The position numbers and the translations under genes are program-made. Of a stretch of DNA of 21,468 bases, positions 1 through 19,952 are shown piece after piece (position 1 is the stretch's first letter; each line of letters starts with the position of its first letter). The stretch lies in the IMG/VR virus record IMGVR_UViG_3300008448_000788, positions 1 through 21,468 of that record. One strand, 5' to 3'. Source of the stretch: a virus. The notes beneath the pieces were generated by a model. The model worked only from the letters and a program-made list of their open reading frames with translations. It had not been told where the DNA came from and ran no database searches.

Positions 1-3000
1 ACCTGCTCTAACATTTCCTACAACACTTAACGAAATTAAGTTTCCGACTGATGTAATATTTGCTTGTGACGGGAAAGTAACAGTACTAGCTAATAAAGCG
101 TTAGGCACTTGACCAGTTATATTTGCACCTACTATACCAAACAATCTTGAAGCATTTCCTGCGAACGTACCACTTGTTACACCATTGCTCTTAAAGAATC
201 TTAATGATGATGAACCATTAAAAGTACCATTATCGTTAAATTGAATTTCTGTGTTTGTTCCTGCAGCCGGAACGATATTTAAAATGTTCGCAAAGCTTAA
301 AGTTCCATTACCGTCGGTAGTTATAACATCATCTATTGACCCGCCGGCAATTTTTACATTGGCTATATTTCCTAAATTAGCAAGATTGGCAACAGAAATA
401 TCATTAGCTGTCACATATGAAATTATTGTATTATTTGCATTAATTGTTAGGTTATCAACATTAGATGTAATTGATGTTTGACCAATAGATACACCCACGT
501 TACTTACTGCTAAACTACGCCAAGTATTTGCAGGAATTCCTAAATTATAAGTAGCAGTTACATTAGGCACTAAATTAGACCTTACAAAGTTCGTAACGGA
601 TAAATTATTAAGTGTGGCTGCTGAGTTAATCAGTAAAGTGTTAGCATTTACATTGTCTGACTTAACATTACTGTATGCACTAATATTACCTGTAGCTATT
701 AAATTACCTACATTTGCTAAATTAGCTACTGTTAAATTACTAGTAACACTTATGTTAGCACTTATGATATTTGCAGCATTAACATTAGCAACTGCTGAAA
801 TATTACCACCTCTAACTAGTCCAGTAATACTTAAATTACCGCCACTAATATTTCCAATAGCACTTATAATATTTGCAGAATTAATATTTCCTGCATTTAC
901 ATTTCCACTAGTAATTACTGTTCCGGTAGTGCTTAAGTTTGCGCCTGTGATAGTACCTGCAGCAGTTATACTTCCACTAAATTGAGCATTGGCTAAATTA
1001 CTGTTCCCTGCAACACTTAGATTTCCACTTGTTACTAGATTACCTGCTTCAACATTGCCAGTGGCTGACACTGTTGATCCTATTAATACTGCGGAATTTA
1101 CGGTAGTAGCATTTACAGTAGTAACATTAGCAGTTGAACCATTTATAGTTGATAAATTTGAATTACCTGTAACTGATAATACACCGGTTACCGTAACTGT
1201 ATTTTGACTTATAACAACAACGTTAGAAACATTATTGACACTAACTGCAACGTTTCCATTAGCTGCAGGCACATTGATGCTTGTAGTACCATTAAATAAA
1301 TTACCTCTTACATTTCCTAAGAAGAAATTAGCGGTAACTGCATTACCTAAATTAGCATTTAATGCTGTAATATTTCCTGACGCTGAAAGAGTTGTAGAGT
1401 TAACGTTATTTGCATTAACATTTCCTACTGCAGATATATTACCAGATACACTAACTCCTGCAGCATTAATGTTTGATACAGCACTTACATTTCCTGTTGA
1501 GTTTAAATTTGCAGCAACGATGTTTGCGTTGCTCACTATACCAACTGCACTTATTGTTCCTGTAAAATTAGCATTGGTTACGGAAGCAATATTACCAGCA
1601 GTAACATTTCCTGTTGCTGTGATGTTAGTAGCAGTTGATATTGCGCCCGAAGAAGTTATACCGCCTGCTGCAGCTATATTAAGACCTGAAATATTGCCGG
1701 ATGCGCTGATTGCCGCTGCAGCGGCAATATTATTACCTGATAAGTTTCCTGACGCACTTACAACACCTGTGGTAAATAAGTTTGCACCAGTTACATTACC
1801 GGTTGCACTATGTGTGCCTGTCACTGCAATACCTGTACTTGTAATTACTTGTACATTTGCAGTACCGCCAACGCTTGTTCTTACATTACCATTTGCTGCT
1901 ACAGATACATTACTATTACCATTAATGATTGAGCTTCCTGCAGCAACAGTTAGGTTGGTTAGTAAACTTCCGTCTCCTTGGAAGAAATTCGCTGTTACTA
2001 AATTACCTAAATTAGCATTTAATGCAGTTAAATTACCACTTGCACTAATTTGTCCTGTATTTAGATTATTGACTGTAGCATTTCCAGAAGCACTTATTGT
2101 ACCTGCTACTCCCAAATTAGCAACATTTGCATTTCCGGTTGCGCTGATGCGACCGCTTGTCAGTAAATTAGCACCAGTAATGTTACCAGAAGCTGAGAAC
2201 GTAGATGTGCTGAGATTTCCTAAATTAGAATTACCATTTACAGATACATTTCCTGATACAGATAATCCTGTATTAGTAACAGTAACTACGTTTGCAGTTG
2301 CGCCAGAACTAATTGTAACTGCGCCATTTAATGAAGGAATACTTACGTTACTTGTACCATTACTTATTTGATTTAAGGAACTTTGATTACCTAAATTAAT
2401 ACCTGTTAGGAACGCACCATTTCCCAAAATATAATTAGCTGAAGTTATATTTCCTGTTGAACTTATTTCATTATTAATGATTAAGTTATTTGATGTAATA
2501 TTACCTGAAACAGAAATATTACCAGAATTTACCTGTTGTGCAATTACGGTGCCGGTTGCACTCACATTACCACCTGTAAACAGGTTAGCACCTGTAATGT
2601 TGCCATTTGCACTAACTCTACCCGCAGTATTTAAATTTGATCCTGATATATTGCCATTAGCACTTACTACACTTGCTGCATTTAAATTATTTGCAAGAAC
2701 ATTACCTAATACGCTAATATTAGTACTGACGCTAATACTACTTGCAGTTAATGCACCTCCAGTTGATATTGAAGAGGTTGCTAAAAGATTAGATCCTTGA
2801 ATGTTACTACTTGCCGTTATATTGCCAGTACTAGAAATTATTGCTCCACGTATGTTATTACCGGCAATAATGTTGCTACCAATGTTTAAATTACTACCTG
2901 TAATACTTCCTGTTGCACTTATTGTCACACTTTGTAACGTACTAGTAGTAGGGTTAAATGTTAAATTAGCACTTGCTGCTAATCCACTATTGATATTATA

Positions 3001-4518
3001 TTGAATTTGATTCGTGCTACCTGCAACTATATCCGGTAGTACTACAGGACTCCAGCTAAGATTACCTAAACCATCTGTAACAAGTGTATAGTCAGGAAAT
3101 CCGCCACCTATTCTTACGTTAGAAACATCACCTAATTGGGTAAGTCCATTAACGGTCAATCCATTTAATGTACCTACACTACTAATATTAGGCTGTGAGG
3201 AAGAATCTGCAGTTATGATTGCTGAAACAAAATTTGCGTAAACAGTATTAGATATGTTTGCGTTTTCAGCAGTTAGTGTGTTACTACTAATGCCATTAGC
3301 ATCAGATGAAATTGAAGTATTACCTAAGTAAATAGTATTACCTGATAGGTATAATGATCTCCAACGATTCGTTGCGTTACCTAAATCCTGTTGAATATCA
3401 GTAGCAGGTATTAAATTACCTCTAACAACACCGGTGACCGAAAGATTACCTACATTTGCACTACCTAATGTGTTAACATTTCCTGCTGTTAATGTTCCAC
3501 CTGCACTTACGATACCAGTTGTCCTTAAATTAGCACCGGTAACATTACCCGCAGCACTAATTGCTGAATTAGCATTTACTGTTGTGAAATTTGCCGCTTG
3601 TGCCGTGTTACCGAGGCCTATGTTTCCTGAAAAATTATTTGCAACAATATTAGAAGTTACATTTATATTTGTAATATTTGCATTACCAGCAAGAGCTAAA
3701 TTACTTGTATTTTTATTAAAAGTTAAATTCGCACTTCCACCAAATAGTCCTGCTGTATCTTGGAATTGAATTTGTGTATTAGCTCCGCCAGGCACACCTG
3801 TACCAGCTTGATAAAATGAACATATAATATTACCAGTGTTTGGTGTTGCTGGAGTGAATCCTGTACTGTTAACAGCGTTCGCTAAACCAGGGTCTGAATA
3901 TAGTGAAAAAGTTTTATTTGTTAACTTAACGCCATAGAATTTGTTTGTGCTATTTTCACCCGCTGTTGATATTTGTGTCATACCACTTACACCAATAATG
4001 GTAAGTGGTATACCAGTTACAACTGTGTTGTCATTAATTGTTGTTACAACCGCTGGATTCGTTTTAGAAATATCCTGAATTCTAAAAGTACCAACTCCTG
4101 TACCTTCCCATGTAAGATTTCCTGTACCGTCAGTAGTGAGAACATAACCATTCAAACCTCCGCGCATAACAACATTATTTGCGTTTCCTAGGTCAATCTT
4201 AATATTACTTGTTCCACCTGCGTTAACCCATGTATTTGCATTTGCTACTAAAACTTGACCATTTCCAACTGGACTAGTTAAAGCAATTTGGGTATTAGCG
4301 GTTCCGCCTATTTTAGACCAATTTAAAACAGAAACTTCTGTTAAAATTTCAGTCTGAGTGGTTAATGAGTTACCAGCTGGAGGAAATAAATTGGGATCAT
4401 TTCCTATGTATAATCTACGCTCATCAGTTGCAAAACCTAATTCGCCTTCAGCTAGCTGGGGCAAATCAACGTTAGCCCCTGTACGGTGTTGAATCTTAGA
4501 AATCTGTATAATAGCCAT
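1..4518 (-). CDS. Repetitive tail-fibre-like virion protein, partial (runs off left edge)
   Basis: The frame is open for 1506 codons from the ATG at 4518 to the window edge with no stop, so the C-terminus is missing. Residues 1-40 (IQHRTG then LAEGELGFATDERRLYIG) match the N-terminal domain found on phage tropism determinants and fibres, which usually anchors the protein to the baseplate. After it come recurring modules: three copies of NVxIxGG..TDGxGNLxW (about 115-137, 467-489, 1387-1409), three of NTQIQF.D..F.GSANLTF (about 247-267, 502-521, 1422-1440), and two of LG.ATNRWRSLYLS (about 379-392, 1326-1339). Residues 535-1280 are mostly 17-residue repeats of the form GNITGANLxTxGxVSAS, rich in Gly, Asn, Ala, Ser and Thr, consistent with a beta-solenoid shaft. 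Almost no Cys or Trp is present. The role as a host-contacting fibre is inferred. A late-promoter motif lies 31 bases upstream. Confidence 0.85.
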   Translation of the reverse strand, partial: MAIIQISKIQHRTGANVDLPQLAEGELGFATDERRLYIGNDPNLFPPAGNSLTTQTEILTEVSVLNWSKIGGTANTQIALTSPVGNGQVLVANANTWVNAGGTSNIKIDLGNANNVVMRGGLNGYVLTTDGTGNLTWEGTGVGTFRIQDISKTNPAVVTTINDNTVVTGIPLTIIGVSGMTQISTAGENSTNKFYGVKLTNKTFSLYSDPGLANAVNSTGFTPATPNTGNIICSFYQAGTGVPGGANTQIQFQDTAGLFGGSANLTFNKNTSNLALAGNANITNINVTSNIVANNFSGNIGLGNTAQAANFTTVNANSAISAAGNVTGANLRTTGIVSAGGTLTAGNVNTLGSANVGNLSVTGVVRGNLIPATDIQQDLGNATNRWRSLYLSGNTIYLGNTSISSDANGISSNTLTAENANISNTVYANFVSAIITADSSSQPNISSVGTLNGLTVNGLTQLGDVSNVRIGGGFPDYTLVTDGLGNLSWSPVVLPDIVAGSTNQIQYNINSGLAASANLTFNPTTSTLQSVTISATGSITGSNLNIGSNIIAGNNIRGAIISSTGNITASSNIQGSNLLATSSISTGGALTASSISVSTNISVLGNVLANNLNAASVVSANGNISGSNLNTAGRVSANGNITGANLFTGGNVSATGTVIAQQVNSGNISVSGNITSNNLIINNEISSTGNITSANYILGNGAFLTGINLGNQSSLNQISNGTSNVSIPSLNGAVTISSGATANVVTVTNTGLSVSGNVSVNGNSNLGNLSTSTFSASGNITGANLLTSGRISATGNANVANLGVAGTISASGNATVNNLNTGQISASGNLTALNANLGNLVTANFFQGDGSLLTNLTVAAGSSIINGNSNVSVAANGNVRTSVGGTANVQVITSTGIAVTGTHSATGNVTGANLFTTGVVSASGNLSGNNIAAAAAISASGNISGLNIAAAGGITSSGAISTATNITATGNVTAGNIASVTNANFTGTISAVGIVSNANIVAANLNSTGNVSAVSNINAAGVSVSGNISAVGNVNANNVNSTTLSASGNITALNANLGNAVTANFFLGNVRGNLFNGTTSINVPAANGNVAVSVNNVSNVVVISQNTVTVTGVLSVTGNSNLSTINGSTANVTTVNATTVNSAVLIGSTVSATGNVEAGNLVTSGNLSVAGNSNLANAQFSGSITAAGTITGANLSTTGTVITSGNVNAGNINSANIISAIGNISGGNLSITGLVRGGNISAVANVNAANIISANISVTSNLTVANLANVGNLIATGNISAYSNVKSDNVNANTLLINSAATLNNLSVTNFVRSNLVPNVTATYNLGIPANTWRSLAVSNVGVSIGQTSITSNVDNLTINANNTIISYVTANDISVANLANLGNIANVKIAGGSIDDVITTDGNGTLSFANILNIVPAAGTNTEIQFNDNGTFNGSSSLRFFKSNGVTSGTFAGNASRLFGIVGANITGQVPNALLASTVTFPSQANITSVGNLISLSVVGNVRAG
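535..2916 (-). repeat. 51-bp (17-residue) tandem repeats inside the fibre gene, with a 660-bp higher-order duplication
   Basis: Translated minus-strand repeats such as GNVTGANLFTTGVVSAS, GNLSGNNIAAAAAISAS and GNISGLNIAAAGGITSS follow one another at exactly 17 residues. A larger unit starting at ITALNANLGN..VTANFF occurs at about residues 830 and 1050, 220 codons apart; at DNA level 1342-1365 and 2002-2025 share 24 identical bases at an offset of 660. A more diverged third copy begins near residue 691. The repeats are degenerate, so the edges given are approximate. Confidence 0.8.
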
Positions 4519-6534: not shown

Positions 6535-7263
6535 TTATCTTTTGCCACGGCCTAATTTAGGAGCAGGAATTTCTTCACTGTCCATTTCATCTTCAGGTGG
6601 CGTTGGTAATTCTTCTGCACCTTGAGCCATAGCGTCAACTTCAGGCTCGCCCATTGATGGTGCAGCGCCCATATTACCCATACCGCCCATGCCAGGCATA
6701 CCGCTACCAAAACCACTACCTTGTCCTGTGACAACATTTAAGGCACTTTGTAATCCACTTTTAGCTTGTGTCAATGCTGCTTGCAATCCAGACAAAGCTT
6801 CAGTCGCCATTGCATTGAATTGCTCTCCTTGGTCACTGCCCATTTCACCGCTAACACTTTCTACTACTGCAGGCAATTCTTTTACTAGCATGTCAGAAAC
6901 ATCTTCAATCATTTTCTGAACACTGTCCATCATATCTTTAGCCGCAAGAACAACCTGTGCTTGTTCAATTTCTTCGTTTTCTACAACGATACGACTGTTA
7001 TATTTTGGTGTTTCTTTTAGTTCAGCATAATAGTCTGACAATGCTTGTTCCATAAACACTAGTTTTAGATACTGTGGATTATTTTCGCTGGAATAGGATT
7101 TATCAGTTTCTTTTACCTCGCTGATTAAGTTTTTTACTTTACCGAGCATGTTTCTTGTCTGTGACAAGCTTAGCTTCTCGATCGGAAGATCGGTGTTAAA
7201 GTTTTCTCTTAAAGCCTTTTTGGCCATTGCGTAAGGTTTTTGATTAAATTCTGTAAGTTTCAT
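6535..7263 (-). CDS. Unknown late protein with Gly/Met-rich linker and acidic tail (structural or scaffold-like)
   Basis: I choose the ATG at 7263 (242 residues, MKLTEFNQKPYAMAK). A TTG at 7275 extends the frame by 4 codons, but GGGA lies 6 bases before the ATG. Residues 1-180 look helical, with RNMLGKVKNLISEVKET and NNPQYLKLVFMEQALSDYY; residues about 181-204 are a Gly/Met-rich stretch (SGMPGMGGMGNMG); residues 205-232 are strongly acidic; the end is basic (LGRGKR). This composition resembles assembly or core proteins, but no family is firmly recognised. Two late-promoter motifs lie upstream, which suggests strong late expression. Confidence 0.75.
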   Translation of the reverse strand: MKLTEFNQKPYAMAKKALRENFNTDLPIEKLSLSQTRNMLGKVKNLISEVKETDKSYSSENNPQYLKLVFMEQALSDYYAELKETPKYNSRIVVENEEIEQAQVVLAAKDMMDSVQKMIEDVSDMLVKELPAVVESVSGEMGSDQGEQFNAMATEALSGLQAALTQAKSGLQSALNVVTGQGSGFGSGMPGMGGMGNMGAAPSMGEPEVDAMAQGAEELPTPPEDEMDSEEIPAPKLGRGKR

Positions 7264-7285
7264 AGTAATTCCCAAAGATGTATAG

Positions 7286-7303: not shown

Positions 7304-7780
7304 TTATTTATAGGAACTAGTGCCTAGCCAATTCATTTGAAATCTTCTTGCTTTTTGACTGAAATCTGTCATTTCTATCGTTAGTCTATCCTGTTTTAGT
7401 TTATTTTCAACTAATTTATTTGAGTATATAAATTTTTTGTCTTTATCTTTAACATTTTTCAGATATCGTTCAATTAGTGCAGAGGACATGGATAATCCAG
7501 TTATTTGACTATCTAAGAATTTTACCCTTTGTGACTCTACAACTAAATTTTTGTTGTCCAAAGTACACCAAGTCAATGCATTTTTCAATGTTAAAAATCT
7601 GTGTTCTGTATCATTGTACAATTTAGTGACTTTAAAACCTGCATTTGTTTTGGTAATCAGATACTTTTCAAAGACCCTATACCCGTTATTTTCCTGTATA
7701 ATCACGAATTTTTTAATGTTATTAACAGTGTTCGGGTCTATGATTTTTTGAATAGCCCTAAGTAATTCTATGTCAGTCAT
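7304..7780 (-). CDS. Conserved-type phage protein of unknown function, 158 residues
   Basis: I place the start at the ATG at 7780 (MTDIELLRAIQKIIDPNTV); a TTG at 7795 would add 5 residues, but it falls in what looks like the ribosome-binding stretch (GAGG, about 10 bases before the ATG). The ATG overlaps the end of the preceding gene by 8 bases. The protein is lysine-rich and mixed alpha/beta, with a C-terminal helical region (NKLVENKLKQDRLTIEMTDF). No catalytic motif is visible. It looks like a family I associate with marine T4-like phages, without known function. Confidence 0.7.
   Translation of the reverse strand: MTDIELLRAIQKIIDPNTVNNIKKFVIIQENNGYRVFEKYLITKTNAGFKVTKLYNDTEHRFLTLKNALTWCTLDNKNLVVESQRVKFLDSQITGLSMSSALIERYLKNVKDKDKKFIYSNKLVENKLKQDRLTIEMTDFSQKARRFQMNWLGTSSYK
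7305..7312 (-). promoter_or_regulatory. Late promoter motif TATAAATA (distal of a tandem pair)
   Basis: This is a perfect TATAAATA on the minus strand. It overlaps the TAA stop codon of the upstream 158-residue gene, so the codons TAT AAA TAA also spell the promoter. It sits 19 bases from the proximal copy. Confidence 0.5.
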
Positions 7781-8228
7781 CGGACAATACCTCAAAATAA
7801 ATGTTTCTAAGCTCAGGGCTAGTATCTAAAAAACTGGGCATCTGGATGTAATTTCTGTCATTTTTAATCATTGGAACTAAATCGCAGTCTGTGTAAAGTG
7901 ATCCCAAATCATCATGTCCGTCAGAAAATACGCTTTTATAGTTTACGGAAAACTCAAAAGCCCAACAAGAATTAGGTTCTTCTGTTGAATACAAAAATCC
8001 AAAGTTCTCAAGTTTCTCAGGATCAAGTACTAATTTAACTGGATCCGTAATGTTTTCAGGCTGCGCCCTTAAGGATACTACCTGTATAACAGTATCTAAA
8101 TTACATTGAGTGTTTCTTTTACTTTGCCAATCTAGTGCCTCTACTGTAGTCGCATTTAATAAGCTTTTTTTATTTGTAACATTTGTTTTAGTAATATCAA
8201 ACAAAGTAAAACATCTGATTTTTGTCAT
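7773..8228 (-). CDS. Conserved-type phage protein of unknown function (MTKIRCFTLFDIT)
   Basis: The 151-residue product starts MTKIRCFTLFDITKTNVTNKK and contains QVVSLRAQPENIT and CWAFEFSVNYKSVF, a pattern I associate with an uncharacterised protein of T4-like marine phages. There is no other usable start codon near the N-terminus, and no Shine-Dalgarno: the bases before the ATG are TATAAATA followed by AAGTG-like sequence. The late promoter motif predicts a transcript beginning at the ATG itself. The gene follows a terminator directly, so it opens a new late unit with the 158-residue gene. Confidence 0.75.
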   Translation of the reverse strand: MTKIRCFTLFDITKTNVTNKKSLLNATTVEALDWQSKRNTQCNLDTVIQVVSLRAQPENITDPVKLVLDPEKLENFGFLYSTEEPNSCWAFEFSVNYKSVFSDGHDDLGSLYTDCDLVPMIKNDRNYIQMPSFLDTSPELRNIYFEVLSDD

Positions 8229-8233
8229 ACACT

Positions 8234-8241
8234 TATTTATA
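8234..8241 (-). promoter_or_regulatory. Perfect late promoter motif TATAAATA, 5 bases before an ATG
   Basis: TATAAATA on the minus strand is followed by five bases and the start codon at 8228. If the T4 late start site lies about 6 bases after the motif, +1 coincides with the A of ATG. It sits just after the T-run of the terminator at 8247-8271. Confidence 0.65.
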
Positions 8242-8246
8242 GAGGT

Positions 8247-8271
8247 AAAAAAACCCGAGAAATTCTCGGGT
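8247..8271 (-). terminator. Rho-independent terminator after the 134-residue gene
   Basis: On the minus strand an 8-bp perfect stem (ACCCGAGA with TCTCGGGT, 3-base loop, 8253-8271) is followed directly by seven T residues. It lies about 20 bases after the stop codon at 8292. Confidence 0.9.
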
Positions 8272-8291: not shown

Positions 8292-8696
8292 TTAAGCCTG
8301 TGTACTTGTGAATGTTGCTGAGTTGCTTGTGATAACTGAACTTACAACTGCTTGACACACTGCTGTTAAATTAGCACCAACTGAACCGTCTGTTGAGAAA
8401 GCTTGTGTTGGATAAACTGCAACTGCTAGTGTACCGTTAGCTCCTGCATCAGTCCACTGATACATATGAATAGTTGCTAATTGTTGAATAGCTTGAACGA
8501 TTAAAGCAATGTTTCCGCTTTCTGTACTTGCGTTATCAATGTTAGCACCTTCAATTGTGAAGAAGTCTAATTTAGGACCTTGTGGTTGTACTGAAGCACC
8601 ACTTGTTACTGCATTTAATGCACCTTTTGTATAACCAGATGCATCATAGTTCATTACTGGCTGAAAGTCGCCGCTTACTTTTGTAAATTGTGCCAT
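8292..8696 (-). CDS. Small probable virion-associated protein, single-gene late unit
   Basis: This 134-residue protein (MAQFTKVSGDFQPVMNYDA) is rich in Ala, Ser, Thr, Gly and Asn, with little Lys, a composition typical of phage surface or structural proteins. A central segment (ALIVQAIQQLATIHMYQW) is hydrophobic but too polar for a firm membrane call. No enzyme motif is visible. It has a strong ribosome-binding site (AAGGA, 9 bases before ATG), a late-promoter-like motif upstream and a strong terminator after it, so it appears monocistronic and highly expressed. Function unknown. Confidence 0.8.
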   Translation of the reverse strand: MAQFTKVSGDFQPVMNYDASGYTKGALNAVTSGASVQPQGPKLDFFTIEGANIDNASTESGNIALIVQAIQQLATIHMYQWTDAGANGTLAVAVYPTQAFSTDGSVGANLTAVCQAVVSSVITSNSATFTSTQA

Positions 8697-9792: not shown

Positions 9793-11215
9793 ACTTTTTC
9801 AGGCTGTTAAGCATAGCTTTTAATCTTGCACCTTGTACATCTGCATTGATTTTAGGAACATCCTGAACAACATCCTGTAATTCACTGTTATGTGTAGGGG
9901 ACACATTACTTGAGGGCTTTAATCTTGATATTATATCATTAGGACTTGGCTGTGGATTATTGTATTTTGTGCTTGCAGATTGCCCATCTTCACCTGGATC
10001 TGTAATCCTAAGAGTTTCTACATTAAACTCCAGTTCAATCTTTTGACCTACTCCTGAACTACTACGTGTTTTCATAAGCTGAATCTGATATTGCCCACGC
10101 TCACGCATACTGCGACTTGTGAAGATACCGAACACATTATCTGCTGTATTAATCTTACTGATACCACCTGAAATATGACTGTGATCAAACTCAATCTCCT
10201 CAACTGCACTACGATTTAATTGACTAGCTGTAACTAGCAGCACGTTCAATTCTTTAGACAAGTTACGCAATTCTTCCGAAACATACTTGTCCTTAATGAA
10301 CAAGTCTGAGGGGCTGACCTTTGCGCTGACTGGCATAAGGAGATCAAGATAATCAATACAAAGAAAATCTACCTTTGCACCAGTCTTAATCTCATACTCT
10401 TTACAATATGCCCGTAAGTCATTTACTGTACTCTGTGCCGGCAAATACTTGATTTGTAATTTACCTGCTTTCTTTGCCAACATTCTGACCTTCATTTCAA
10501 TGTCATCAATGCTTTTAAAAATATCACGGCTGCTAGTTTCTGTCATCATGCTATCTATACGCATAGAACATAGTCCTTCGCTAAGTTCTAACGATACATA
10601 GATACCAGTTAATCCTGCTTGACTCCAGTTGACTGCAAGATTCTGCATAAACAAACTCTTACCTGATCCTGAGCCACCTGCAAAAATTTGTAGTTCACCT
10701 CTGTTGAAGCCACCATATAGTTTACTGTCAACTGTAGGCCAACCTGTGCTTATTTGTCCGTTGTTACTTTTTAATGCCATCAATCTAGCACGTGGGTCAG
10801 CAAAGTAATCAGTTCCCATATCCTTTGTTATACTGATTTGAACTGCGTCTTTGACTAATTTTTCAACTGGGTCGTAATTGCCTTTTTCTAATAAGTCTGC
10901 TGCTTTTAGGATAGCTCTTTCTAGTTCTTGTCTGCGTGTGAATTTTTCAAACTCGTCTAAGAACCATTCAAAGTGACCTTGTGATAATTCTGGTATCGGT
11001 TCAATTTCTATTCCACATGTGGCTAATACCTGATCCTGTTCAGGCAGTATGTTATACTTTTCTGAATGTAGTTGAAAAAATTTTGCAATTGGTCTCAATG
11101 ATTTATCAAAATTCTCAGCATTCATTATATTTGAAACTCTAGTGTATAATTCACCATTCGTGATCATCATACGCAAGAAAAGTTTCTGCACATCTATGTT
11201 ATAATCAGTTACCAA
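9791..11215 (-). CDS. 41: Replicative DNA helicase, DnaB family, T4 gp41-like
   Basis: This 474-residue protein is the ring helicase that should unwind DNA 5' to 3' at the phage fork and work with the primase. The RecA-type core is plain: Walker A GGSGSGKS at 180-187, Walker B VDFLCIDYLDLL at 282-293, SLELS near 208-212, VTASQLNR at 328-335 and a C-terminal arginine-rich segment (TSRSMRERGQYQIQLMKTRS, 366-385). Residues 1-130 form the N-terminal domain; 405-474 is a polar tail, probably for partner binding. Length matches gp41 (475 residues). The ATG lies inside the end of the primase gene (11-base overlap). Confidence 0.95.
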   Translation of the reverse strand: MVTDYNIDVQKLFLRMMITNGELYTRVSNIMNAENFDKSLRPIAKFFQLHSEKYNILPEQDQVLATCGIEIEPIPELSQGHFEWFLDEFEKFTRRQELERAILKAADLLEKGNYDPVEKLVKDAVQISITKDMGTDYFADPRARLMALKSNNGQISTGWPTVDSKLYGGFNRGELQIFAGGSGSGKSLFMQNLAVNWSQAGLTGIYVSLELSEGLCSMRIDSMMTETSSRDIFKSIDDIEMKVRMLAKKAGKLQIKYLPAQSTVNDLRAYCKEYEIKTGAKVDFLCIDYLDLLMPVSAKVSPSDLFIKDKYVSEELRNLSKELNVLLVTASQLNRSAVEEIEFDHSHISGGISKINTADNVFGIFTSRSMRERGQYQIQLMKTRSSSGVGQKIELEFNVETLRITDPGEDGQSASTKYNNPQPSPNDIISRLKPSSNVSPTHNSELQDVVQDVPKINADVQGARLKAMLNSLKK

Positions 11216-12218: not shown

Positions 12219-12965
12219 TTATCTAGCCAAAATATTTGAGACATTTCCACCTGTTGAGGTGAATTGCAATTGTATATAAGGATGAAATCCAGTTATGGTA
12301 GTACCGAGTGTTGCGGATTCTTCTGTGAAAGTACCCAAAGTTTCAATAGTGTACCAGTTTGCATCTACGTCTGTTGATCCAAGAACGTTAATGTTACCTG
12401 AATAGTTACTCAATGCCGTTTGTATCGTTAACTTACTTGCCCCACTTAACCCCAATACGCTACTGTAATACGTATTGCCTGTATTGGATACGTTACCATG
12501 AGAAGGTATAGTTACTTGTGTACTAGGTACATGTTTGGGAAGTATACTATCCATTACTTGACACACTCCCCTAGCGTCTGCTTCGCTATTAGTGAATATA
12601 GGTAATACTAAATTACCTTCAACTATATCTAGGCTAAAACTACCGATCTGTGCGTCAATTTCCATTAATTCTGCTTGAGTTATTGTTAGATTAGCTAAAC
12701 CCTTTAAAGGTAGTGTTGGATTAACCGTCTTTTGAATATCTACCCCTGTTCCATCTGAATTTATAAAACGAAAAGTTATATCTTTCCCCGTTAAATCAAT
12801 CGGTTTTTGCTCCTGATTAAGAAACTGAAATTGAATTCTATTGTCTACCCCTTTGTTTAGGGTCAAATTTTTTGCGTACACGATCTGATATCTCCTAGGT
12901 GAATCCCCGTCAAATAGAACAACTTGATATTTTGGTGTATAATTATAAACGCTTGTTGAGTACAC
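12219..12965 (-). CDS. Virion-like protein with BppU-type N-terminal domain, GTG start
   Basis: The 248-residue product starts at GTG (12965), supported by AAGGA with a 7-base gap and a late promoter just upstream. Residues about 35-130 (NRIQFQFLNQEQKPIDLTGKDITFRF) resemble the immunoglobulin-like fold of phage baseplate upper proteins; the C-terminal half is Ser/Thr/Gly/Asn-rich beta material ending HPYIQLQFTSTGGNVSNILAR. This fits a baseplate, neck or fibre-associated protein. Its placement between the primase and early-type genes makes it a late island in a replication region. The exact position in the virion is unknown. Confidence 0.7.
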   Translation of the reverse strand: MYSTSVYNYTPKYQVVLFDGDSPRRYQIVYAKNLTLNKGVDNRIQFQFLNQEQKPIDLTGKDITFRFINSDGTGVDIQKTVNPTLPLKGLANLTITQAELMEIDAQIGSFSLDIVEGNLVLPIFTNSEADARGVCQVMDSILPKHVPSTQVTIPSHGNVSNTGNTYYSSVLGLSGASKLTIQTALSNYSGNINVLGSTDVDANWYTIETLGTFTEESATLGTTITGFHPYIQLQFTSTGGNVSNILAR

Positions 12966-12993: not shown

Positions 12994-13001
12994 TATAAAT
13001 A
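12994..13001 (+). promoter_or_regulatory. Perfect plus-strand late promoter motif TATAAATA
   Basis: This lies three bases from the minus-strand motif and in the opposite direction, so the pair forms a 7-bp inverted repeat. It could serve the plus-strand gene at 13066 with a leader of about 59 bases. Confidence 0.4.
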
Positions 13002-13024
13002 TGCTATGCGGTTAATAATTATTT

Positions 13025-18912: not shown

Positions 18913-19952
18913 TTTAACTCTATTGGGCTTGAATTTACTAAGGTTATCACCTTTGATGCGTAAAAGGTACCTGACATAAAGGCACTATAAGATGAACTTG
19001 ATCGTATCATTACCGGCATGTTGTACTTATTAGGTTCTACAAATTTATCTGTATTACGATTATTAACTTTGTCGATAGGAAAATTTAAATGTTTTTTTAA
19101 TTGTTGATCATAATTTAGTGCATCCAGTGAACTGTGTAATACTGCCGCATAAATTACATAATCACATTTTATTTTCCTAAGTTTAACAGCTAGTCCTTCA
19201 ACATCAGCAAGTTCATGAATTACATTTCTATGGATAGCAAATTTTATTTCATCTAATGTGTATTCATTTTTTAATTTGTTAATTACATGTTCGCTAATCT
19301 TAATTCCATATGATACAAGTAATGATATTGTGCTTAGGTCAGTATTTAATTCAATATCTTTGATTACTCTTGCAAGTGGTTCATTTAAATTAAAAATATA
19401 CAATCTATCATTACATCTTACTAGTGTTGGATCCCAGCAACTGTTCTCATCATGTATGCTAATTTCATCAATAATATTTCTTATTGTATCACAAAACATT
19501 ACAGTATCATAATGTTTCATTACACATCCTATTGCCAATTTTAGTTTATACAAACCAAACTCAGTATTATAAAATCTTTTTTCTCTATTCCAAGTCATTA
19601 TGGAATGATCTCTGAACTCTTGCACGAATGATGCTTTATAGGGACATTTTAAAATTAATTCCCCATTTTCAATACTGAATTGTGCTTGTGTATATTCTGG
19701 GCTACTCTGTATTACGGTGAGTGTCCAAGGCAATTCAGATAATTGTTCAGAATCAAATTGGTGTTTACCCAATTGTGTCTTATACTTCTTGACAACTTTC
19801 TTAAACAATGCCACTTGGTTACTTGTGATAGGCTTTCTAGATAATACGTTAGCTACTTGTAGATTGTAAAAGAACTTTTGGTCATATCGTGACAAGCTGA
19901 CATGATTCAACATCAAGTCCAAAACTTCTTCGGCATTCAGTAATCTATTCAT
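18909..19952 (-). CDS. Unknown protein coupled to uvsW, 347 residues
   Basis: MNRLLNAEEVLDLMLNHVSLSRYD begins a soluble mixed alpha/beta protein. Residues about 92-145 (ENGELILKCPYKASFVQEF, TWNREKRFYNTEF) faintly resemble the substrate-binding domains that sit before SNF2-type motors (pattern: pinch of beta strands, then a W followed by K and aromatic residues), but this is a weak impression. The stop overlaps the uvsW ATG, so the product is likely made with the helicase. There is no Shine-Dalgarno; a sigma70-like -10 lies 6 bases before the ATG. Confidence 0.75.
   Translation of the reverse strand: MNRLLNAEEVLDLMLNHVSLSRYDQKFFYNLQVANVLSRKPITSNQVALFKKVVKKYKTQLGKHQFDSEQLSELPWTLTVIQSSPEYTQAQFSIENGELILKCPYKASFVQEFRDHSIMTWNREKRFYNTEFGLYKLKLAIGCVMKHYDTVMFCDTIRNIIDEISIHDENSCWDPTLVRCNDRLYIFNLNEPLARVIKDIELNTDLSTISLLVSYGIKISEHVINKLKNEYTLDEIKFAIHRNVIHELADVEGLAVKLRKIKCDYVIYAAVLHSSLDALNYDQQLKKHLNFPIDKVNNRNTDKFVEPNKYNMPVMIRSSSSYSAFMSGTFYASKVITLVNSSPIELK

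Follow-up and report, generated by a model that had tools for sequence, protein, structure and literature searches.

Probable leaderless late mRNAs, recurring in some T4-superfamily lineages, from T4-type promoters adjoining the start codon

The late promoters of phage T4 are a textbook system. Leaderless phage mRNAs are known as well, for instance that of lambda cI, and the familiar examples are single phage genes or host-wide habits. The T4 late promoters (gp55/gp33/gp45) have late genes downstream. Their octamer TATAAATA spans positions −13 to −6, and they possess no conserved −35 element (PMC1524935, PMC2988020). Late promoters of the cyanophages S-PM2 and Syn9 (NATAAATA) share this box (PMC2984593). 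The late promoter motif TATG of phage phiKZ contains an ATG-like string with the G as the transcription start, and the same article calls phage transcripts “often leaderless” (PMC5312081), so that the general idea is already in print. Leaderless mRNAs use AUG, other start codons being mostly weaker, and in some species translation becomes less efficient the farther the start codon is from the 5' end (PMC9031893). Among the matches listed for the open PMC literature, no report of leaderless T4-type late mRNAs was visible from titles and the openings of abstracts.

The stretch of DNA analyzed here, the window, is the 21,468-base virus record IMGVR_UViG_3300008448_000788, which is a fragment and to which all coordinates refer unless another genome is named. 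An earlier note on this DNA had claimed that a perfect late promoter box is located 5 bases before an ATG at 8228 and that a Shine-Dalgarno (SD) sequence is absent. Both statements agree with the sequence: TATAAATA occupies positions 8241-8234, AGTGT positions 8233-8229 and ATG positions 8228-8226, and no AGGA-, GGAG- or GAGG-type site is present 5' of the ATG. The order on the minus strand is the gene 8696-8292, a hairpin, a T-tract, 5 bases, the octamer, the spacer and the 151-codon open reading frame (ORF):

8292-8696, minus strand: upstream gene, which the hairpin would close (from the ORF list, with a relative in G007)
8254-8270, minus strand: terminator-like hairpin CCCGAGAATTTCTCGGG, its arms being CCCGAGAA and TTCTCGGG, past the end of the upstream gene (from the sequence)
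8247-8253, minus strand: T-tract (7 T) that stops 5 bases short of the octamer (from the sequence)
8234-8241, minus strand: T4-type late promoter octamer (from the sequence)
8229-8233, minus strand: spacer of 5 bases, 4 or 5 long and variable in its letters in relatives (from the sequence and relatives)
8226-8228, minus strand: start codon ATG, its A being the predicted transcription start (from T4 geometry)
7773-8228, minus strand: target gene, 151 codons, of a widespread phage family (from the ORF list and relatives)
7304-7795, minus strand: next gene (from the ORF list)

The gene 7304-7795 overlaps the end of the target gene and is therefore likely the second cistron of its message. According to the SD rule used in this study, a fraction of only 0.21 of the 24 window ORFs of at least 100 codons has an SD site, so the absence of such a site at the target gene is not special here.

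A comparison of 25 window proteins gave matches for 23 in G007, a 223-kb relative, and for 13 in Pseudomonas phage PA5oct (Arenbergviridae), 12 of these 13 being collinear with the window, with insertions. The matching proteins, among them a DnaB-like helicase and a homologue of the HTVC008M protein annotated as UvsW, indicate that the window comes from an Arenbergviridae-like phage of the T4 superfamily. A gp55 homologue is located in G007 at 159052-159948 (E 1.2e-10), together with homologues of gp44 (clamp loader), gp17, gp20 and gp23. No gp55 gene was found in the window record, itself a fragment, and no gp45 sliding clamp in G007 with phmmer or with Pfam PF02916, the Pfam search having been run without a working control. 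The window also contains, at 1-4518 (−), an open-ended, repetitive protein of 1,506 amino acids with many related stretches elsewhere in G007, which may, at a guess, be a surface protein or a fibre.

If the octamer spans −13 to −6 as in T4, position +1 would be the A of the ATG at 8228. From this arrangement, we infer that the preceding transcript would stop at the terminator 8270-8247 and that host RNA polymerase with a phage gp55-like sigma factor would read a late promoter fused to the start codon. The polymerase would bind TATAAATA and start at the A of the ATG, giving the presumably late message no leader or one of at most 1 nt, and ribosomes would initiate on the 5'-terminal AUG instead of an SD site.

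The window contains 3 copies of TATAAATA with 3.9 expected, and one box-N5-ATG arrangement with about 0.1 expected (Poisson p 0.092). By these local statistics the site could be chance, and relatives were used to decide. An initial search yielded 8 loci, all with the box 5 bases from the ATG (3 of them with one mismatch), and the spacer letters differed wherever the sequences differed. A profile search then found at least 548 relatives of the target gene among the candidate stretches, 80 of which were kept, and the 85 loci gave 58 distinct upstream regions after duplicates had been dropped. When the best match was chosen by mismatches and ties were resolved to the spacing closest to 5, each of the 58 distinct upstream regions carried ATAAATA, with one mismatch at most, at spacing 4 (34) or 5 (24), although related sequences in these counts are not independent of one another. 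Other keys for duplicates led to 50 rows for the exact heptamer, and to sets of 49 and 53 containing only rows already at spacing 4 or 5. The exact heptamer was at 4 or 5 in 36 of the 50 rows and at any other spacing within 0 to 40 in none; the other 14 had no exact box.

The N-terminus ahead of the conserved protein core is 2 to 5 residues long, so the start codon shifts by up to three residues against the core; the box shifts along and tracks the start codon, not the core. In all 49 rows of the smaller spacing-4/5 set, the stretch 5' of the box has a folding energy of at most −11.9 kcal/mol, and 52 of the 53 distinct 47-base stretches in the larger set beat all 100 mononucleotide shuffles. 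The last run of at least 4 T ends 5 (33/49) or 6 (9/49) bases before the box and is missing in 2 of the 49. The family reaches as far as 47% protein identity with the window gene, and the relatives show that the site at the target gene is real.

A leadered family, that of the window gene 13066, served as control. The exact box was present in 35 of 57 distinct upstream regions, always at 16 to 33 and never at 0 to 15, and 22 had no exact box. Just ahead of this gene, at 12994-13008 (+), another TATAAATA is located 4 bases before the ATG of a 17-codon frame, and the same string is present in G002. This site was considered as a second case and set aside, as it leads into the 17-codon frame. The gene 12219-12965 (−) is leadered, with the box at 17, AAAGGA and a GTG start; its homologue EST35_0222 of PA5oct, a structural protein by an ESI-MS/MS note, has the 5-base layout. 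For 6535-7275 (−), the relatives have an ATG matching position 7263 with GATAAATA 22 to 24 bases before it, which makes the TTG at 7275, given as the start in the ORF list, a probable misassignment.

Other families were compared as well. In the family of G005_7240, all 23 members with usable upstream sequence had the box at 4 (3) or 5 (20), 14 of them with one mismatch. In many of these upstream regions (L324-L364), a short palindrome, for instance AACTCTTC-GAAGAGTT or CCTTTGCAAAGG, was seen by eye directly 5' of the box; it may be either a terminator or an operator. The family of G005_60951 counts against a simple story: of 52 distinct rows, 14 had the box at 5, 2 at 4, 5 at 7 and 5 at 19 to 24, while 3 were without upstream sequence and 23 had no box, the latter being apparently operon-internal. 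For the HTVC gp2 family, 25 of 31 loci were examined, and 10 distinct ones had the box at 5 (8), at 8 (one) or not at all (one).

The spacing from ATAAATA to ATG was also counted before ORFs of at least 50 codons in long contigs, and spacing 5 was compared with 20 other permutations of the same letters. The sequence covered was the first 381 kb of SCTP-2 and Atu_ph07, 191 kb of S-PM2 and phiM12, and 286 kb of PA5oct. The observed and expected numbers at spacing 5 were 1/0.10 for the window, 2/0.03 for G002, 4/0.06 for G005 and 4/0.15 for G007; G002, whose copy of the target gene is identical, is not independent of the window. They were 9/0.12 for HTVC008M and 6/0.50 for Mosig, both Pelagibacter phages, 3/0.22 for Melnitz, 4/0.38 for PA5oct and 7/0.73 for SCTP-2. 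The 5-base layout was consequently about 10- to 75-fold above the permuted motifs in the window clade and in these five cultured phages. The best single permuted heptamer reached 3 versus 4 for the true one in G007, 4 versus 6 in Mosig, 4 versus 4 in PA5oct and 5 versus 7 in SCTP-2, which makes these four weaker cases than HTVC008M and G005, where the best permutation reached 1. Spacing 5 was not significant in P-SSM2 (1/0.12, p 0.11), S-PM2 (1/0.18, p 0.16), Syn9 (0/0.07), T4 (0/0.28), phiM12 (0/0.13) and Atu_ph07 (0/0.30). The earlier note had regarded leaderless messages as rare in T4-like phages. This would hold for T4 and the three cyanophages but not for the lineages in which the layout appears as a recurrent class.

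The 5-base class coexists with a leadered class in the same genomes. The counts at spacings 0-4, 5, 6-13 and 14-30 were 1, 8, 3 and 39 for G005 plus G007, 1, 15, 7 and 27 for HTVC008M plus Mosig, 0, 0, 2 and 27 for T4, and 3, 2, 2 and 59 for the three cyanophages. In the window clade the gap at 6-13 is clear; the Pelagibacter phages show it less distinctly. IMG/VR was scanned with the pattern GGGTTTTTT-N5-TATAAATA-N(0-30)-ATG, modelled on the window terminator, which gave 115 stretches with 71 distinct matches, 49 of which open ORFs of at least 50 codons. These 49 were at spacing 4 (1), 5 (18), 6 (3), 7 (1), 8 (2) and 14-30 (24), and at no other spacing. A crude measure of similarity sorts the 19 matches at 4 or 5 into seven groups; of these 19 matches, 7 come from the window's own family. 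Intermediate spacings do occur, with 7 sites at 6-13 in HTVC008M plus Mosig and 6 of the 49 scan matches at 6-8.

In the cultured phages, the sites could be compared with annotated starts. In HTVC008M, all 9 exact sites and, when the shorter core TAAATA is used, 12 of 12 sites are on annotated CDS starts, including those of a DNA end protector, a base plate wedge subunit, a putative tape measure protein and CsgF. The DNA end protector, gp2 in T4, has the 5-base layout in HTVC008M, Mosig and Melnitz, and the layout is also present before the head completion gene of HTVC008M and before ORFs resembling gp20 and gp17 in G007 and G005. By these gene assignments, the 5-base class serves late or structural genes. 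In HTVC008M (L093), the genes for the DNA end protector (−) and head completion (+) are divergent at 18916-18943 with their late boxes abutting, each box 5 bases from its own ATG, the plus-strand box with a mismatch, and 26 bases separating the start codons.

In Mosig, 7 of 8 exact sites are at annotated starts, 73459 being the exception, and in Melnitz 3 of the 3 exact pattern sites compared, out of four, match. Four exact sites precede ORFs of at least 50 codons in PA5oct (144985, 144676, 180252 and 283960), and the first three were compared with the annotation: 144985 is the annotated start of a structural protein (ESI-MS/MS note), 144676 is inside a CDS, and the gene at 180252 is annotated 15 bases further upstream. 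Late-promoter prediction was described as unsuccessful in pelagimyophages in a section of PMC7029224, which may be because a box 5 bases from the ATG was missed or deemed too close. The study of Melnitz counted 15 late promoters, and the passages of it consulted do not remark on the spacing (PMC9004378).

Signals for translation and transcription starts were compared between the classes. SD-like sites were present in 3 of 26 members of the 5-base class versus 51 of 78 leadered ones (window clade, Pelagibacter phages and Melnitz), a scarcity that is partly built in because the box occupies the SD position. GTG or TTG starts at spacing 5 numbered zero in the window clade, HTVC008M, Mosig and Melnitz, which would fit direct reading of a 5' AUG, and one each in PA5oct, T4 and phiM12. 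Bacterial transcription starts favour a purine after a pyrimidine. Within the 5-base class, 35 of 39 sites have a pyrimidine at −1, whereas other ORFs have one in 314 of 633 cases (Fisher p 2.8e-7); among the relatives of the window gene it is 46 of 49. The few hits in T4 (1/4) and the cyanophages (3/6) did not show this bias. The leadered promoters of the window clade agree with such a start through pyrimidine-A steps at offsets 5 and 6, yet have further ones at 2 and 3, so a calibration of the start from them is only suggestive. The earlier note had placed +1 exactly at the A of the ATG. This fits the window, while the relatives with spacing 4 (34 of 58) would require a start one base nearer to the box than the T4 norm.

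The prediction of a leaderless late mRNA in the earlier note thus finds support at the level of sequence, from a spacing that is conserved while spacer letters and N-terminus vary, the permuted-motif control, the leadered class in the same genomes, the leadered control family, the pyrimidine at −1 and the annotated starts in cultured phages. It is likely that, in some lineages of the T4 superfamily, T4-type late promoters producing leaderless mRNAs, with a leader of 0 to 1 nt, recur as a class.

This reading has to be weighed against others. TATAAA resembles a −10 box, and TATAAATA at the target gene could be the −10 element of a host sigma-70 promoter instead of a gp55 promoter. The RNA would nevertheless start at or beside the ATG, as sigma-70 geometry should also put the start within about 1 to 2 nt of 8228. 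Such a promoter is improbable, since the same box is located 14 to 30 bases before other genes of these phages, the −35 region is the stem of the hairpin, and no conserved −35 motif was seen by eye among the relatives. Even less probable, at a few chances in a hundred, is a role of the A/T-rich octamer as a translation signal, for example an S1-binding enhancer, on a longer mRNA reading through the terminator. A/T-rich leaders can help ribosome binding, but the remaining permutations of these letters show on average no enrichment at spacing 5 (single ones reach 3 to 5 in G007, Mosig, PA5oct and SCTP-2), and a hairpin, mostly with a T-tract, is immediately 5' of the box in the relatives examined.

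The offset of the start was taken from T4 and not from the gp55 homologue of these phages, and an in-frame TTG is present 24 bases inside the target gene, so that transcription might begin a few bases downstream and translation at a later in-frame start. With a protein conserved from 2 to 5 residues after the ATG and no other Met before residue 120, this is highly improbable. The probability of a functionless chance match in the window, to which the 3 copies of TATAAATA against 3.9 expected and the p of about 0.09 would point, is close to nil: conservation in 58 of 58 distinct upstream regions and in members down to 47% identity already refutes it. A leaderless message from a gp55-type promoter agrees best with these observations.

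The protein of the target gene had no PHROG match, and a 45-row profile had none in 14 reference phages, in a search without positive control. Structure models reached a mean pLDDT of 59 and 74, the latter from 45 sequences, and the better model gave no fold match in the PDB with E ≤ 0.001. Matches in BFVD at E ≤ 0.001 were uncharacterised or unnamed phage proteins only, one of them from Atu_ph07. Conservation begins 2 to 5 residues past the ATG, with the core IRCYTLFDIT, and the next Met of the window protein after the start does not come before residue 120.

Ribosomal protein bS21 is encoded by all five cultured phages enriched for the 5-base layout:

HTVC008M 91228-91431: phage bS21
Mosig 9983-10132: phage bS21
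Melnitz 35461-35619: phage bS21
PA5oct 170985-171143: phage bS21
SCTP-2 192508-192666: phage bS21

Three of these five carriers are mutually related. The protein was undetected in G007, G005 and G002, the enriched contigs of the window clade. It is also present in Atu_ph07, which has no spacing-5 site in the part read, and in Vibrio phage 2.275, which has no pattern match, and it is absent from T4, Syn9, S-PM2, P-SSM2, phiM12, KVP40 and 121Q; the layout of Vibrio 2.275, KVP40 and 121Q was judged by the unfiltered pattern only. The distribution fits an association between bS21 and the layout in part, a lead too weak for a claim. Phage bS21 has been tied to late-stage expression (PMC9723584). 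A wider scenario is rather unlikely, but may be outlined: several T4-superfamily lineages (the Pelagibacter phages and their relatives, PA5oct, SCTP-2 and the window clade) would express a late gene set, structural genes included, as leaderless mRNAs whose gp55-type promoters adjoin the start codons, part of late translation would be free of the SD route, and phage bS21 may retune ribosomes for it.

To understand what is new here, the layout has to be compared once more with the described systems. T4 late promoters stand well ahead of SD-led genes: all 29 exact T4 boxes within 30 bases of an ORF start are at least 12 bases from the ATG, 23 of the 27 boxes at 14 to 30 are accompanied by an SD-like site, and none is at 5 before an ORF of at least 50 codons. 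The cyanophages share the box but differ in its placement, with nonsignificant spacing-5 counts of 1 in P-SSM2, 0 in Syn9 and 1 in S-PM2. The late promoters of phiKZ differ by a phage-encoded RNA polymerase and another motif. With the leaderless mRNAs of bacteria and phages, the messages predicted here from sequence would share an AUG at or near the 5' end; unlike in the familiar cases, the layout is built into a class of phage late promoters and recurs in structural genes. Cultured phages carrying the layout exist, and some relatives with it infect abundant ocean bacteria. If true, a class of late promoters welded to the start codon changes the prediction of late genes in abundant environmental phages. 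What is new is the scale, as some lineages of the T4 superfamily seem to have gp55-type promoters joined directly to start codons as a regular option.
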